Source of the DNA: a bacterium
Lineage (GTDB): Bacteria; CSSED10-310; JAJRTK01
NCBI GenBank assembly: GCA_024278345.1
Contig: JAJRTK010000457.1
Location: 1 to 7,611 of the forward strand
DNA: 7,611 nt
Direction of reading: 5' to 3'
Of this stretch, positions 248 to 7,611 are shown piece by piece (position 1 is the stretch's first letter; the number at the start of each line of letters is the position of its first letter). Under the pieces are notes generated by a model. That model worked only from the letters and a program-made list of their open reading frames with translations. It made no database searches and had not been told where the DNA came from. Position numbers and translations under genes: made by a program.

Positions 248-2041
248 ATGTGCGGAGTTGGCGCGGTATTCCACTACGGCGATGCTCGTGAAGGAGAATT
301 GCGCTCCTGGCTCGGAGATGTCAACCAAGCCCAGCGGTGCCGCGGTCCCGACGGTGAGGGGCTATGGATCTCTGAGCATGGGAGAATGGGTCTGGGACAC
401 CGGCGTTTGGCCATCATCGACCTCAGTGAGCAGGGTGCACAGCCGATGGCGACTGAGGACGGAATGGTCCGCATTGCTTATAACGGCGAAATTTACAACT
501 TCCGGGCGCTGCGCCGGGACTTGGAGGGACGAGGCTGCCGCTTCCGCTCGGAGAGCGATACCGAGGTTTTGCTTCATCTTTACCGCGAGTACGGAGCAGA
601 AATGTGTACTCGCCTGCGAGGTATGTACGCTTTTGCCCTCTGGGACGAGGCGCGGAAGGGTCTCTTGCTGGCGCGCGACCCTTATGGGATCAAGCCCCTA
701 TACTACGCCGACGACGGGCGCACGCTGCGGGTAGCCAGTCAGGTGAAAGCGCTGCTCACTGCCGGGGCCATCGATACCTCACCAGAGCCGGCCGGCCATG
801 TTGGATTCTTCCTGTGGGGCTGCGTGCCTGAGCCTTTTACGTTGTATCGGGGAATCCGTGCGCTGGCTCCAGGGACTACGCTTTGGGTACAGCAGGGCAC
901 CACCCCCCGCGCCAACGTCTTCTGCGACATCGTCCGGGAGATCACGCAACCGGAACCGGCTCCGGTCAGGGAGCCAGGGGAGGTAGCCGAAATCTTGAGA
1001 CGTGCCTTGGAGGAGAGTGTCCGTCGGCATCTAGTTGCCGACGTCCCCGTTGGGCTGTTTCTCTCGGCCGGGCTCGACTCGACATCCATTGCGAGGCTGG
1101 CGTCACGCTCGATTGCTGAACTTAGGACCGTGACTTTGGGGTTTGACGAGTACCGGGGAACACAAGCTGACGAGACGCCGCTGGCGGAGATGGTGGCAGG
1201 CCTGCTCGGTTCCGATCACACCACTCGCTGGGTCCGTAGGTCCGATTTCGATCAAAACCTCGATGCCGTTTTGTCCGCTATGGATCAGCCAAGCATTGAT
1301 GGCGTCAATACGTACTTTGTGAGTAAATCTGCGGCGCGAGCGGGTCTCAAAGTTGCACTGTCAGGTCTTGGCGGAGATGAACTTCTGGGTGGCTATCCGT
1401 CTTTCCGACACATACCAGCAATGATGCAGATATCTGCCCCTTTTAGCTGGATTGGTAAAGCGTTTCGTATTGTAACTTTGCCCTTGCTCCGGCGCTTCAC
1501 TTCGCCCAAACACGCTGGACTTTTCGAATTTGGCCATTCACCTGGTGGAGCCTACTTTTTGCGCCGGGGTCTGTACATGCCTTGGGAACTTCCATCGTTT
1601 CTTGACCCGGATCTCGTTCGCGAGGGCTGGCGGCAACTAGATTTAATTGCCCGCATTAATCGCACACTACCTGAGCATTCACCCCTATCCCCCGTGGTTG
1701 CTGCCATGGAGTCCACCCTTTACATGCGCAACATGCTCCTGCGCGATACTGATTGGGCCAGCATGGCCCATTCGCTCGAGGTCCGGGTACCACTCGCGGA
1801 CCTAGATCTTCTACGTGCTATTGCCCCGCTAATGACGACCCCTACACCTCCAAATAAGACAATGATGGCAAATTGTGCGTGGCGTGAAGGGACACCGCAA
1901 GCACTTCTTCACAAGCCTAAGACCGGATTTTCAATTCCGGTTCACGAGTGGCTGCGTCCAGAGGCATCTAGTGGCGAACGCGGACTCCGCTCTTGGGCCC
2001 GATTTGTTTACTGGGCAGTACTCGGGCGACTTGGCGGATGA
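248..2041 (+). CDS. asnB: Asparagine synthetase (glutamine-hydrolysing)-type amidotransferase
   Basis: This 597-residue cytosolic enzyme hydrolyses glutamine and passes the ammonia to an acyl-adenylate made with ATP. The class II glutaminase domain covers about residues 1-210. It has nucleophile Cys2 directly after Met1 (MCGVGAVF), RGPDG (32-36), GHRRLAIIDLS (50-60), YNGEIYN (78-84), SDTE (103-106) and RDPYGIKP (143-150). The synthetase domain, about 235-560, has the pyrophosphate loop SAGLDS (273-278; SGGxDS is the common form) and SGLGGDE (372-378). The start is fixed because Cys2 must become N-terminal; CGGAG at 237-241 precedes it. Length and C-terminus (WARFVYWAVLG) look complete. In polysaccharide clusters such paralogues, for example Pseudomonas WbpS, are thought to amidate uronic-acid sugars rather than make free asparagine; that role here is inferred from context. 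GC falls from about 70% near the 5' end to below 50% in the 3' half (hand counts of single 60-base rows). Confidence 0.93.
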   Translation: MCGVGAVFHYGDAREGELRSWLGDVNQAQRCRGPDGEGLWISEHGRMGLGHRRLAIIDLSEQGAQPMATEDGMVRIAYNGEIYNFRALRRDLEGRGCRFRSESDTEVLLHLYREYGAEMCTRLRGMYAFALWDEARKGLLLARDPYGIKPLYYADDGRTLRVASQVKALLTAGAIDTSPEPAGHVGFFLWGCVPEPFTLYRGIRALAPGTTLWVQQGTTPRANVFCDIVREITQPEPAPVREPGEVAEILRRALEESVRRHLVADVPVGLFLSAGLDSTSIARLASRSIAELRTVTLGFDEYRGTQADETPLAEMVAGLLGSDHTTRWVRRSDFDQNLDAVLSAMDQPSIDGVNTYFVSKSAARAGLKVALSGLGGDELLGGYPSFRHIPAMMQISAPFSWIGKAFRIVTLPLLRRFTSPKHAGLFEFGHSPGGAYFLRRGLYMPWELPSFLDPDLVREGWRQLDLIARINRTLPEHSPLSPVVAAMESTLYMRNMLLRDTDWASMAHSLEVRVPLADLDLLRAIAPLMTTPTPPNKTMMANCAWREGTPQALLHKPKTGFSIPVHEWLRPEASSGERGLRSWARFVYWAVLGRLGG

Positions 2042-2045
2042 TGGG

Positions 2046-3206
2046 ATGAACATTCTTCACATCACTCCAGCCCACTACCCCGCCATGTGCTACGGCGGCC
2101 CCATCTTCACCGTGTGGCAGATGAACAACGCTCTGGCGAAGTTTCCTGGAGTTTTACTTCGCGTGCTCACGACGGATGCGGCAGGTGCGCGACGATTATC
2201 TGGCCAGGAAAGAGCAATAAGGCCCGACTATGAGCTCGTCTTTACCCGGAGGATTGCCGGTGCCGGCGTTTCCCCGGGCTTGCTCACCCGATTGTTGCCC
2301 GCGCTCGCTTGGGCCGATGTGGTGCACCTTACCGCTTTGTACTCTTTCCCGACCATTCCGGTACTTATGGCCTGCCGGGTGATGGCCAAACCAACCGTAT
2401 GGTCTTTGCGTGGCGCATTGCTTGATGACTTGAATCGTGCTCACTATGATCCTCAATCGAGCTCAATCAGGTTTATTAAACATTGCTGGAACCGTCTTTG
2501 CCGCTCATTAATCGAACGCCCCGGCGCGGCCATTCACGTGACTACGCACCAGGAATTGGAGGCGTCGCGGTCTGTCTTCCATAAGGCCCGCTTTGCTCTG
2601 ATTCCTAACGGCGTCGAGATTCCGAATGTATTGCCTGAAAACAGAGAGTGGTTAGCAGGTGGGCAGGTACGCCTGATGTTTCTTGGACGCTTGGCGCCCA
2701 AGAAGGGCATTGAAAACCTCTTACATGCCATGGCCCAGCTTGGGCCGCAGGTGTACCTTAAGCTGTATGGCTCAGGGCATGTGGCTTATGCCCGAAAGCT
2801 CAGGGCGCTGGCGGAGAATCTTCGGGTCGGCGATCGGACGGTTTTCATGGGCCATCTGGATGGAGAAACAAAGCCTCGGGCCTTTTTTGAGGCCGATGTG
2901 TGTGTGGTGCCGTCGTATTCGGAGAATTTCTGCATCGTGGTCGCTGAGGCACTGGCGCACGGCGTGCCGGTGATTGTCAGCGATCGCCTGGCCTGGGGCG
3001 AAGTGGCGGAGGTCGCGTGTGGGCTGGTGGTACCGAATGATCCAGAGTCGTTGGCGGCCGCTGTCCGACGCATTGCTGGGATGGACCTTCCCGAGATGGG
3101 ACACCGAGGTCGGAGATGGATGCAAAAGAGTTTCGATTGGGCCGTCATTGCAAAGAGAATGGCGATTACGTACAAGAGTGTTGTAGAGGCTACTCGTGAG
3201 TCGTAG
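2046..3206 (+). CDS. Glycosyltransferase family 4 (GT-B fold)
   Basis: A 386-residue retaining glycosyltransferase that would transfer a sugar from a nucleotide-sugar donor to a lipid-linked acceptor at the inner face of the cytoplasmic membrane. The N-terminal Rossmann half opens with MNILHITPAHYP and a glycine-rich GGP at 17-19. The linker has IPNGV at 186-190. The donor-binding half has FLGRLAPKKG (212-221) and the EX7E motif within PSYSENFCIVVAEALAHG, with Glu293 and Glu301. I chose ATG 2046, 4 bp after the asnB stop, because the family's N-terminal beta strand begins exactly there. The frame is open back to an ATG at 1875, but that start would overlap asnB by 167 bp and add 57 unrelated residues. 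A weak GGCGGA at 2033-2038 may be the ribosome site. Sugar specificity cannot be read from the sequence. The 3' third is much richer in GC than the middle. Confidence 0.92.
   Translation: MNILHITPAHYPAMCYGGPIFTVWQMNNALAKFPGVLLRVLTTDAAGARRLSGQERAIRPDYELVFTRRIAGAGVSPGLLTRLLPALAWADVVHLTALYSFPTIPVLMACRVMAKPTVWSLRGALLDDLNRAHYDPQSSSIRFIKHCWNRLCRSLIERPGAAIHVTTHQELEASRSVFHKARFALIPNGVEIPNVLPENREWLAGGQVRLMFLGRLAPKKGIENLLHAMAQLGPQVYLKLYGSGHVAYARKLRALAENLRVGDRTVFMGHLDGETKPRAFFEADVCVVPSYSENFCIVVAEALAHGVPVIVSDRLAWGEVAEVACGLVVPNDPESLAAAVRRIAGMDLPEMGHRGRRWMQKSFDWAVIAKRMAITYKSVVEATRES
3185..3189 (+). promoter_or_regulatory. Ribosome binding site deciding a GTG start
   Basis: AGAGG lies 6 nt before GTG 3196, inside the end of the preceding glycosyltransferase gene. 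It supports the GTG start over the first in-frame ATG at 3229, which would cut off the first cysteine pair of the methyltransferase's zinc ribbon. Confidence 0.6.
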
Positions 3207-4071
3207 AAAGGAATGCCCCGCTTGTGGAATGAAGAGAAGCGTAAAAGCTTTTGAGAAAGAAGGCTACGCTGTCCATCGATGCAGGCTTTGCAAAACGCTC
3301 TATATTGAAAATCCCCCGTCTGCTGAGGACCTGATAAGAATCTACAACCACGGGTCATATTATGAGTTGGCCGAGGAATCCATCCGGCGAATTCAACGAG
3401 AAGCTCTTCGGCGATGTAGGATTGTGAAGCGATGGAAACGGATCGGGACCTTCATCGAGATTGGATGCGCACGCGGTTGGCAGCTCGATGCTGCGAGGGC
3501 AGCTGGTTTTGAAACATATGGGACAGAGCTTTCGCAAAAGAACGTATCAATGTGTACAGAAAGAGGCCACCATGTTGTGCATGGGGGGATGGAAGAAGCG
3601 AAAGAGATCAAGCCTCAACAAGGCTTCGATATTGTCGCCTGCTTGGATGTCATCGAGCACGTTCTTGGCCCGCGTGATTTCCTCGGAAAGGCAGCCGATC
3701 TCTTAGCCGATGATGGGATATTGATCGTATCCACGCCGAATTATTCTGGTGTTGTGGCCAAGGTGCTTGGCGCTGAAGATCCCTTCATGATACCCCCGGA
3801 ACACCTCAACTTCTTCACTCTTCAAGGGCTCCGTCTCATGTTTGGCAGTGCCGGCCTTGACGTGTTGTACAGAACGACATTTGGCGCCCTTACTATAGAA
3901 GAAAGAAAGAGGATTCCAGAGAAATACTTACCTACTCCACTGAAGCGACTGGGAGGCATCGCCTCGGCAGTCGCTCCATTGGGTGTGTACTGCCTGAATC
4001 TTCTCAAAGTTGGGCTCGAGATGGAGGTCTATCTGAGGAAGCAGAGATGGCGCCAGACCTTACTTGCATAG
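3196..4071 (+). CDS. Class I SAM-dependent methyltransferase with N-terminal zinc ribbon
   Basis: A 291-residue predicted methyltransferase starting at GTG and overlapping the preceding gene by 11 bp. The N-terminus carries two cysteine pairs, C7-x2-C10 and C29-x2-C32, typical of a small zinc ribbon. The SAM-binding Rossmann fold follows: FIEIGCARG at 86-94 (motif I, G90 and G94), Glu111 at the end of strand 2 as the likely ribose-binding acid, FDIVACLDVIEHV at 144-156, and STPNYSG at 179-185. This arrangement is that of Methyltransf_23-type proteins common in glycan loci. The C-terminal 40 residues have a hydrophobic stretch (about 253-278) that may sit against the membrane. The likely substrate is a sugar hydroxyl or a glycan end, but no residue proves it. 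The gene is lower in GC than its 3' neighbour (about 47% in row 3241-3300). It ends with TAG, 25 bp inside the next gene. Confidence 0.9.
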   Translation: MSRRKECPACGMKRSVKAFEKEGYAVHRCRLCKTLYIENPPSAEDLIRIYNHGSYYELAEESIRRIQREALRRCRIVKRWKRIGTFIEIGCARGWQLDAARAAGFETYGTELSQKNVSMCTERGHHVVHGGMEEAKEIKPQQGFDIVACLDVIEHVLGPRDFLGKAADLLADDGILIVSTPNYSGVVAKVLGAEDPFMIPPEHLNFFTLQGLRLMFGSAGLDVLYRTTFGALTIEERKRIPEKYLPTPLKRLGGIASAVAPLGVYCLNLLKVGLEMEVYLRKQRWRQTLLA

Positions 4072-4973
4072 TGCTCACCTATAATGAAGAAATCCATATT
4101 GAACGCTGCCTGCGCTCGCTTGAAGGGGTTGCGCACCAGGTCTTTGTTGTTGACTCCTTTTCCACAGACAAAACCGTTGACCTTGCAAAGGATTTAGGTG
4201 CGGTCCTGGCACAACGGCCATTTATTAACCAGGCCGATCAATTCCAATGGGCGCTGGATCATTACGTCGAATACTGCGGCCAAGCCACGGAATGGATCAT
4301 GCGTCTGGATGCGGACGAACATGTGACGCCCGCATTGCGGGAGGAGATTCGCCGTGCCCTACCGGCAGCGGCTTCGGATGTGGCGGGATTCATAATCAAT
4401 CTATGCGTTCACTTTAAGGGTCACCAAATTCGCCACGGTGGTCACTATCTCAGACTACTTCGTCTTTGGCGCGATGGTAAGGCTAAGATTGAGGCCAGTT
4501 GGATGGACGAGCATATGGTGGCGCCATCGGGGCGCGTGTTGGCCCTGAAGGAGGAGATCCACGAGAACAACCTCAACCACATCACCTGGTGGACCGACAA
4601 GCACAACCGCTATGCGTCACGGGAGGCGGTCGATTTGCTCAATAAGCGCTATTGTTTCCTTCCGGAATCAAGAGAGGCGCTGGCACAGTTGAGAGGGCAG
4701 GCGAAAATCAGGCGTTGGCTTAAGGACAGGCTATATACGTATTTGCCGCTAGGATGGCGGGCCTTTTTTTTCTATCTTTACCGGATGGTTTTTCGTTTGG
4801 GCTTTCTCGATGGCCGGGCAGGCATGGCATTTCATTTTCTACAAGGGTTCTGGTACCGGTTCTTGGTGGACATGAAAGTGTGGGAGGTGGAGCATTACAT
4901 GCGTGATCGTCACGTTGGGTGCGTGCAGGCTATCCGTGATGTGTTGGGGATTCATCTGGAGAAGAGAGCATGA
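4047..4973 (+). CDS. Glycosyltransferase family 2 (GT-A fold, WaaE/KdtX-like)
   Basis: A 308-residue inverting glycosyltransferase. It opens with the nucleotide-binding strand DLTCIVLTYNEEIHIERCLRSL (residues 4-25; Tyr12-Asn13-Glu14-Glu15), followed by VVDSFSTDKT at 34-43 in place of the usual DSGSTDGT. The metal-binding DxD is Asp88-Ala-Asp90 in RLDADE. The overall pattern is that of WaaE/KdtX-like (LPS core beta-glucosyltransferase-type) proteins. The last 90 residues are aromatic and hydrophobic (RAFFFYLYRMVF, HFLQGFWYRFLVDM) and probably anchor it at the cytoplasmic membrane. Start ATG 4047 lies 6 nt after GAGGAA (4035-4040), and the gene overlaps the methyltransferase by 25 bp. A run of eight T at 4764-4771 codes for part of the Phe-rich segment and keeps the frame. 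Donor and acceptor are unknown. Confidence 0.9.
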   Translation: MAPDLTCIVLTYNEEIHIERCLRSLEGVAHQVFVVDSFSTDKTVDLAKDLGAVLAQRPFINQADQFQWALDHYVEYCGQATEWIMRLDADEHVTPALREEIRRALPAAASDVAGFIINLCVHFKGHQIRHGGHYLRLLRLWRDGKAKIEASWMDEHMVAPSGRVLALKEEIHENNLNHITWWTDKHNRYASREAVDLLNKRYCFLPESREALAQLRGQAKIRRWLKDRLYTYLPLGWRAFFFYLYRMVFRLGFLDGRAGMAFHFLQGFWYRFLVDMKVWEVEHYMRDRHVGCVQAIRDVLGIHLEKRA

Positions 4974-6616
4974 CGATGATTTTAGGCATCAACGCCTATC
5001 ACGGTGATGCTTCGGCCTGTCTGGTGGTGCACGGCAAGCTGGTGGCGGCAGCCGAGGAGGAGCGCTTTCGGCGAATCAAGCACTGGGCCGGTTTTCCGGT
5101 GGAGGCCATTCGCTACTGCCTGGAGGCAGGGGGTGTCACCTTGACCGACGTGGCCCATGTGGCGACTAACCGCGATCCCGGGGCCAATCTGATCAAGAAG
5201 ATCGGTTTCACCCTCAAGCGGCGTCCCGAGTTGGGGTTGGTGCTCGACCGCCTCAGAAATGCCCGCCAGTGGGCGAGTGTGGAAGAACAGTTGCGCCGTG
5301 GCTTTCCGGATCAGCCCTTCCGAGGCCAGATGCACCCAGTGGAGCATCATTTGGCGCATCTGGCCTCGACCTTTTTCGTTTCGCCGTTCGACCAGGCGGT
5401 GGTGGTGTCGGTGGACGGTTTCGGAGATTTCGCAAGTGCCGCTTGGGGCGTGGGTCGCGGCAACGAAGTCCTCACCGACGACAAAGTCTATTTTCCCCAC
5501 TCTCTTGGCATTTTCTACCAGGCCATGACGCAGTATCTGGGTTTTCCCCATTACGGCGACGAGTACAAGGTGATGGGCCTGGCGCCTTATGGCGATCCGA
5601 ATTTCGTGGACGAGATGCGGCGGATCGTGAAGCTGGAACCCGAGGGATCCTTTCGGCTCGATACCCGGTTCTTCCGACACCAGAAGGAAAAGGTGGACTA
5701 CGAGTGGGAGGGCGGCGCGCCGGGGGTTGGCCGCCTGTTCAGTGAGGAGCTGGAGAATCTTCTGGGGCCAGCGCGGGGCAAGGACGATCCGCTTGGCCAG
5801 CGACACAAGGACATTGCCCGCTCCGTGCAGACCATGTACGAGGAGGCATTCTTTCATCTTCTCAATCGCCTGCACGAGCGCCACGGCCACGACGCGCTGT
5901 GTTTGGCGGGCGGTTGCGCGATGAACTCGGTGGCCAACGGCAAGGTGCGGATGAGAACTCCTTTCAAGCGCGTCTACATCCAGCCCGCGGCAGGGGATGC
6001 CGGGGGGGCCATTGGGGCGGCCTATGCCATCTGGAGCAGGCTCACCGGCGGCAAGCGTGCCTTCGTGATGGAGCATGCCTACTGGGGGCCCGGGTTCAAC
6101 GACGAAGCAATCCAGGCCGTGCTGGATCGCCATGCCGGCAGGATCTCCTCGGAAGGGTGCCGAGTGGAGCATATCGCCGACCAAGGCGAGCTCTGTCGCC
6201 GGACCGCTGAGGCGGTTGCCCAGGGGCACGTGCTGGGTTGGTTCCAAGGGCGGATGGAATGGGGGCCGCGGGCCCTCGGCAACCGTTCCATCGTCTGCGA
6301 TCCGCGTCGGGAAGACATGAAGGATATTCTCAACCTGAAGATCAAGCGACGGGAGTCGTTTCGCCCCTTCGCCCCGTCGATCTTGCGCGAGAAGGTCAGC
6401 GAGTGGTTCGAGGTGGACGACGATGTCCCCTTCATGATGAAGGTTTTTCCGATTCGCAAGGAGAAGCGTGCCTTAATTCCAGCGGTAACCCATGTGGACG
6501 GGTCGGGAAGAGTACAGACTGTCTATCGCCACACCAATCCGCTTTATTACCGTATTATCGAGACCTTTGAATCCTTGACCGGTGTGCCTATTATCCTCAA
6601 CACATCGTTCAACTAG
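4970..6616 (+). CDS. Sugar O-carbamoyltransferase, NodU/CmcH family, truncated by an internal amber codon
   Basis: This family transfers a carbamoyl group from carbamoyl phosphate, through carbamoyl-AMP, to a hydroxyl (NodU on Nod factors, TobZ on tobramycin, CmcH on cephalosporins). Here a glycan sugar is the likely acceptor (inference). The N-terminal Kae1-like domain shows ILGINAYHGDAS (4-15), the metal-binding-type histidines His126, His127 and His130 in EHHLAH, VDGFGDF at 148-154, KVMGLAPYG and LAGGCAMNS at 312-320. The YrdC-like C-terminal domain shows WFQGRMEWGPRALGNRS at 424-440, KRRESFRPFAPS and LNTSFN (543-548). The start ATG overlaps the previous TGA (ATGA), with GGAG at 4958-4961. 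The frame meets TAG at 6614-6616 after 548 residues, in the middle of the conserved LNTSFN-x-NEP motif; family members run on for about 30 more residues, which are still encoded downstream. Product activity is therefore doubtful. If read through, the protein has 582 residues. Confidence 0.9.
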   Translation: MTMILGINAYHGDASACLVVHGKLVAAAEEERFRRIKHWAGFPVEAIRYCLEAGGVTLTDVAHVATNRDPGANLIKKIGFTLKRRPELGLVLDRLRNARQWASVEEQLRRGFPDQPFRGQMHPVEHHLAHLASTFFVSPFDQAVVVSVDGFGDFASAAWGVGRGNEVLTDDKVYFPHSLGIFYQAMTQYLGFPHYGDEYKVMGLAPYGDPNFVDEMRRIVKLEPEGSFRLDTRFFRHQKEKVDYEWEGGAPGVGRLFSEELENLLGPARGKDDPLGQRHKDIARSVQTMYEEAFFHLLNRLHERHGHDALCLAGGCAMNSVANGKVRMRTPFKRVYIQPAAGDAGGAIGAAYAIWSRLTGGKRAFVMEHAYWGPGFNDEAIQAVLDRHAGRISSEGCRVEHIADQGELCRRTAEAVAQGHVLGWFQGRMEWGPRALGNRSIVCDPRREDMKDILNLKIKRRESFRPFAPSILREKVSEWFEVDDDVPFMMKVFPIRKEKRALIPAVTHVDGSGRVQTVYRHTNPLYYRIIETFESLTGVPIILNTSFN

Positions 6617-6718
6617 AATGAGCCGGTGGTGTGCCGGCCGGAGGAGGCGCTCGACTGCTTCCTGCGCACCAAGATGGATGCCCTTGTGTTGGGCAATCAT
6701 TTCATATCCCGCCAGTGA
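6614..6718 (+). pseudogene. Amber codon plus detached C-terminus of the carbamoyltransferase
   Basis: In the carbamoyltransferase frame, TAG 6614-6616 is followed by 33 sense codons and TGA 6716-6718. They read NEPVVCRPEEALDCF, then LRTKMDALVLGNHFISRQ. This is the typical C-terminus of the family; from memory, relatives commonly read LNTSFNENEP and continue with EEALDCFLRT-like and VLGN-like segments. The TAG thus sits where a sense codon, often Glu (GAG or GAA, one base away), is expected. No start codon with a ribosome site lies in this remnant, so it is not a gene by itself. TAG ends two other genes in this window (3204-3206 and 4069-4071), which argues against a reassigned code. Confidence 0.85.
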
Positions 6719-7611
6719 AAGTTCTTGTTTTCGGCCTCAACTTCGCCCCGGAGCTCACCGGCATCGGCCGTTACACCGGGGAGCTGGCGGCGTGGTTGGC
6801 GGACCGCGGCCACGAGGTGCGGGCTGTAACGGCGCCACCGTACTATCCTGCGTGGCGAATCGGTGCCGGGTATCCGGGCTGGAGGTACCGGAGAGAGCGA
6901 TTCGGCTTGGTGGACGTGCGTCGTTGCCCGCTGTGGGTGCCTAGGCGTCCGACTGGGCTGACCAGGCTCTTGCATCTCGGCAGCTTCGCTGTGTCGAGCT
7001 CTCTGCTCACTCCGTCACTTCGCCGCTGGCGGCCGGACGTCATCTGGGCTGTCGAACCGACGCTTTTCTCCGCCCCCGGCGCGTTGCTTGTCGGTCGATT
7101 GTCTCAAGCGAAGTGTTGGCTCCATGTGCAGGATTTTGAGGTGGACGCAGCGTTCGGGCTGGGGTTGCTCAACGGCGGACTCGCGGAGCGAATGGTTCGC
7201 CAACTTGAAGCGGCCCTGATGCGGCGCTTTACGGTGGTTTCGACGATTTCCACGGGCATGCACAGGCGTCTTTTGGCCAAGGGAGTGGAGGAGAACAGGA
7301 CCTTTCTGCTTCCGAACTGGGCGGATTCTCGGTGCCGGTTCGATGCAGAGGGGCGCCGGCGGTTTCGGGTTCGGTATGGTGTGGCGGAAGACGCCGCGTT
7401 GGTGATGTACTCGGGGAATCTTGGGAAAAAACAGGGCCTTGAGTTGTTGCTGGAAGCGGCGCAGCGCTTGCCGACCGTGACCTTTATGGTGTGCGGCGAA
7501 GGGGCGGCCAAGCGAGGGCTGGTTGCACAGGCATCTCGTTTGGGTCTGACCAATGTTCGATTCCTGCCGTTACAGCCGGAGGAGGAATTGCCGGCGATGC
7601 TTTCGGCCGGA
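6715..7611 (+). CDS. wcaI: WcaI-family glycosyltransferase (GT4), 3' end beyond the window
   Basis: The first 299 codons of a GT-B glycosyltransferase; WcaI proteins have about 400 residues, so roughly a quarter is missing. It starts at GTG 6715, overlapping the TGA at 6716-6718. The N-terminal signature VFGLNFAPELTGIGRYTGEL (5-24) with LADRGHEVRAVTAPPYYPAW just after is highly typical of WcaI/WbuB-type fucosyltransferase-like enzymes. Further on are LHVQDFEVDAAFGLG (136-150), LLPNWAD (198-204) and the second-domain strand YSGNLGKKQGLELLLEA (232-248). WcaI acts in colanic acid synthesis in E. coli; here the symbol marks the family only, not the same sugar linkage. No Shine-Dalgarno precedes the GTG (the upstream bases are ATATCCCGCCA), so translation probably depends on ribosomes finishing the carbamoyltransferase at 6718. 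The amber codon 100 nt upstream would weaken that coupling. Confidence 0.9.
   Translation, partial: MKVLVFGLNFAPELTGIGRYTGELAAWLADRGHEVRAVTAPPYYPAWRIGAGYPGWRYRRERFGLVDVRRCPLWVPRRPTGLTRLLHLGSFAVSSSLLTPSLRRWRPDVIWAVEPTLFSAPGALLVGRLSQAKCWLHVQDFEVDAAFGLGLLNGGLAERMVRQLEAALMRRFTVVSTISTGMHRRLLAKGVEENRTFLLPNWADSRCRFDAEGRRRFRVRYGVAEDAALVMYSGNLGKKQGLELLLEAAQRLPTVTFMVCGEGAAKRGLVAQASRLGLTNVRFLPLQPEEELPAMLSAG

Follow-up and report, generated by a model that had tools for sequence, protein, structure and literature searches.

Does the in-frame TAG that interrupts a carbamoyltransferase gene in a surface-glycan cluster of an uncultured bacterium mark a real lesion, an error in the assembled sequence, one state of a genetic switch, or a codon that is read as an amino acid? 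The window analysed here, 7,611 nucleotides in length, spans the entire contig C398 of a MAG of 6.06 Mb that comprises 550 contigs and reaches 87.9% completeness. From the evidence set out below we conclude that the gene carries a single-base nonsense change, evolutionarily recent, that is probably a real null allele, with an error of the assembly consensus as the main competing explanation.

An in-frame TAG in the carbamoyltransferase gene

Starting at the ATG at 4970, the carbamoyltransferase frame runs through 548 codons before it meets the TAG, and, when this codon is taken as a residue, it continues without a frame change through a tail, NEPVVCRPEEALDCFLRTKMDALVLGNHFISRQ, and counts 582 codons in total, with 33 open codons lying between the TAG (6614-6616) and the original TGA (6716-6718). 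This TGA overlaps the GTG start (6715-6717) of the following gene, which encodes a WcaI-like glycosyltransferase. The position of the TAG, the unchanged frame, the position of the TGA and the overlap of the old stop with the next start had all been described in the first-pass annotation and were confirmed from the sequence. The frames of all other complete genes on the contig are open (Table 1).

Table 1 Genes and sequence features of the contig
Feature	Position	Strand	Remarks
Glutamine-hydrolysing asparagine synthase-like amidotransferase	248-2041	+	Frame open to its end
Family 4 glycosyltransferase (GT4)	2046-3206	+	Ends in TAG (3204-3206); homologues match to residue 383-384 of 386
SAM methyltransferase	3196-4071	+	TAG stop at 4069-4071
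Family 2 glycosyltransferase (GT2)	4047-4973	+	4-base overlap with the carbamoyltransferase start
Carbamoyltransferase (Carbam_trans_N + Carbam_trans_C)	4970-6616	+	548 aa as encoded; premature TAG
In-frame TAG, codon 549	6614-6616	+	Glu in 80/80 close homologues
Conserved tail, 33 codons and original TGA	6617-6718	+	Last helix and last two YrdC-like strands in the model
WcaI-like family 4 glycosyltransferase	6715-7611	+	GTG start; cut by the contig end

The residues behind the TAG as family sequence

Without the tail, the Pfam model Carbam_trans_C is matched over profile positions 1-136 of 170 with 202.9 bits, the product as encoded thereby falling short of a complete C-terminal domain, and with the read-through tail the match extends over positions 1-169 of 170 and rises to 242.5 bits, bearing out the earlier remark that the 33 residues after the TAG are still recognisable. 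Both carbamoyltransferase domains (PF02543 and PF16861, with gathering cut-offs of 24 and 27 bits) score above these thresholds with read-through (192.8 and 242.5 bits) and still do so without it (193.1 and 202.9 bits).

The column of the TAG is occupied by Glu in 80 out of 80 close homologues, which were drawn from genome contigs and are about 58-73% identical (best segment), and all of them run on uninterrupted through the tail, confirming the claim of the first-pass annotation that the family conserves this stretch as one block. The same annotation had named close homologues that end naturally at LNTSFN as the observation that would speak against an interruption; none of the 80 does so, and a natural end at this motif is therefore excluded. 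Moreover, among 109 aligned matches of a wider set that includes distant ones, 81 carry Glu and 27 carry other residues (Val, Leu, Asn, Asp, Ala), and the sole stop at this column is that of the window itself. Because read-through extends the Pfam domain match and the homologues are uninterrupted at the column, the tail is, as judged by sequence comparison, real family sequence and no chance open frame.

Comparison with known carbamoyltransferases

The initially proposed name NodU/CmcH is right only as far as membership of the Pfam carbamoyltransferase family goes and fails as a NodU equivalog, with 143.1 bits against a cut-off of 1000 for NCBIfam NF041651. The read-through protein model (mean pLDDT 81.7) shows the Kae1-like plus YrdC-like fold of class III carbamoyltransferases in Foldseek, where GdmN, TobZ, NovN and VtdB match the whole fold at ranks 1-19 (E 1e-42 to 1e-46, TMq 0.77-0.86), and the same class III O-carbamoyltransferases match over the full length of the sequence (phmmer E about 1e-82 to 1e-88) and have the NTSFN..EP motif in common with the window's enzyme. 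In TobZ and GdmN, the YrdC-like domain is the maker of carbamoyl-AMP. Unlike in these four proteins, the frame in the window is stopped by a TAG standing directly after NTSFN, and the gene lies in a glycan cluster, whereas theirs belong to an antibiotic cluster. The structure matches include the TobZ S530A variant (PDB 3vf4); judged by position in the alignment, Ser 530 of TobZ would correspond to the NTSFN serine if the crystallised chain begins with six additional residues.

Close homologues from proteobacterial and other MAGs (for example L008, L009, L011 and L227) are 70-73% identical over the whole length and have no stop at the column of the window's TAG; L227 shares the GT2-carbamoyltransferase-WcaI-like gene neighbourhood, and in L008 the carbamoyltransferase is likewise followed by a WcaI-like gene. 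Interrupted homologues were also encountered, namely one from a Pedosphaera MAG (L075) with an in-frame TGA at residue 361 (position 5081) between conserved blocks, and two carbamoyltransferase fragments carrying TAA (G021 and G055), but these stops occupy other positions in the gene or sit in copies whose decay is further advanced, unlike the TAG described here. A literature search for a documented case of such a lesion returned nothing useful.

Origin of the contig

The tetranucleotide correlation of the contig with its bin is 0.83, compared with at least 0.92 for each of the 7.6-kb pieces taken from 20 other stretches of the bin. The best match of the carbamoyltransferase (73% identity) is a protein of a deltaproteobacterial MAG, followed by proteobacterial proteins at about 70%, against at most 46% identity over the full length within the bin's own phylum. 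Because the composition is outlying and the closest proteins lie outside this phylum, the contig appears to be a glycan cluster that was either horizontally acquired or misbinned. Neither the bin's phylum (8 genomes) nor 60 relatives or the groups around the closest matches contained a closer relative, whether it has the TAG or not, the best match overall being 73% identical; additionally, viral contigs yielded no relative of the carbamoyltransferase and plasmids no DNA match to the window.

Outlying composition was also observed for other contigs of the bin (L198, L211 and L210), so that the bin is probably a mixture or contains many islands.

Possible decoding of UAG as an amino acid

A tail without visible relaxation would suit a codon that is decoded, be it by a suppressor tRNA (a reading raised in the first-pass annotation), via pyrrolysine or in a reassigned code, with the full 582-residue protein being made, but several observations on the bin make this highly improbable. 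Release factor 1 (RF1) is present above its curated cut-off, pyrrolysyl-tRNA synthetase (PylS) was not detected above cut-off, and no CUA anticodon, and hence no UAG-reading tRNA, occurs among the tRNAs that ARAGORN called at the 48 RF00005 matches of the bin; the filed bin accordingly shows neither a UAG-reading tRNA nor RF1 loss nor PylS, and the suppressor-tRNA reading finds no support there. Furthermore, in the roughly 535 kb sampled from the bin, 164 out of 593 long frames terminate in TAG, and the stop is succeeded by another 120 open codons in 16.5% (TAG), 17.0% (TGA) and 22.4% (TAA) of cases; open frame is thus no commoner behind TAG than behind the other two stops, and TAG is an ordinary stop in the bin. 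Two other genes of the contig itself end in TAG, and that of the GT4 gene is located at the natural end, because homologues match almost to its last residue (Table 1).

In favour of decoding, the surveyed bin may not be the genome from which the contig comes. Given its outlying composition and the fragmented MAG, the tRNA and RF1 evidence of the bin may be inapplicable to the contig's true owner; if the contig is misbinned, the bin-level tRNA argument is therefore weaker, although the two TAG-ended genes still count. It is very improbable that the contig stems from a non-bin organism in which certain internal UAG codons are read as an amino acid; in such an organism the full carbamoyltransferase would be made and glycan decoration would depend on the efficiency of read-through.

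As a separate observation, a tRNA-like gene whose anticodon loop is irregular and has six bases, and to which ARAGORN assigns no amino acid, is located on the minus strand of L144 at 473-545 (G000:C257).

Age and nature of the change

The per-column family agreement of the window's tail is 0.754, compared with 0.735 for a typical member, and its codons are identical to, synonymous with or non-synonymous to those of L008 in 8, 16 and 9 cases (159, 240 and 145 upstream), a synonymous to non-synonymous split that resembles the rest of the gene. Decay is thus not visible in the tail, a state that only fits a recent change, an error and read-through equally; we keep this reading modest because the comparison covers 33 codons and the nearest relative is 73% identical. 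The single-base nonsense change in front of an intact and undecayed tail supports the initial suggestion that the lesion is either recent or a base-call error.

The T at 6614 may be an error in the consensus sequence of the metagenome, the organism's own gene being intact, a possibility that we hold to be the less probable one. It is favoured by the distribution of the genome over 550 contigs, by the undecayed tail among otherwise open genes and by the single base that separates the TAG from a Glu codon. G to T is, in addition, the commonest type among the stop-creating single changes of this gene (44 out of 176), and oxidative damage in handling is a known origin of G to T artefacts (PMC12390751). 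Against this, an error would have had to strike one of the 176 stop-creating changes among 5238 possible ones, and on balance we rank a real, recent allele ahead, as the moderately probable reading.

The location in a glycan cluster, where loss of the gene's function would plausibly change the glycan, could also suit a TAG that represents one state of an on/off switch, whether through phase or antigenic variation or through phage-driven selection, as the first-pass annotation had considered. The change is, however, a base substitution in TTCAACTAGAATGAG and not slippage, the site is without homopolymer or short tandem repeat, and no slippage tract was seen at 6600-6630 when the sequence was read by eye. 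No invertible element at the site and no second allele, the latter in the bin's phylum, the relatives or the groups around the closest matches, were found, leaving such variation without positive support and, in our judgement, very unlikely. Together, the TAG is best described as an ordinary nonsense lesion of a known enzyme family, or as an error of the assembly.

Probable consequences for the enzyme and the glycan cluster

With a real nonsense allele, translation would halt after LNTSFN and yield a 548-residue protein lacking its last 34 residues. The elements lost behind the TAG in the read-through model are a helix (557-567) and two strands (571-574 and 577-581), all part of the YrdC-like domain, which adenylates carbamoyl phosphate (PMC9633730). 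Because of this loss, the model makes a loss of function of the carbamoyltransferase likely; the shortened protein would be unstable or fail to activate carbamoyl phosphate, and the glycan would be without its carbamoyl group. Moreover, no Shine-Dalgarno sequence is evident for the GTG at which the WcaI-like gene starts, and ribosomes would now terminate 98 bases before it, which is why the coupling of its translation to the old stop may be weakened, and the downstream glycosyltransferase would receive less translation.

A lone in-frame stop in a compositionally outlying MAG contig should not be equated with recoding without reads. If the allele is real, it would be a further loss-of-function allele in a surface-glycan cluster that changes fast, a finding of local interest only.
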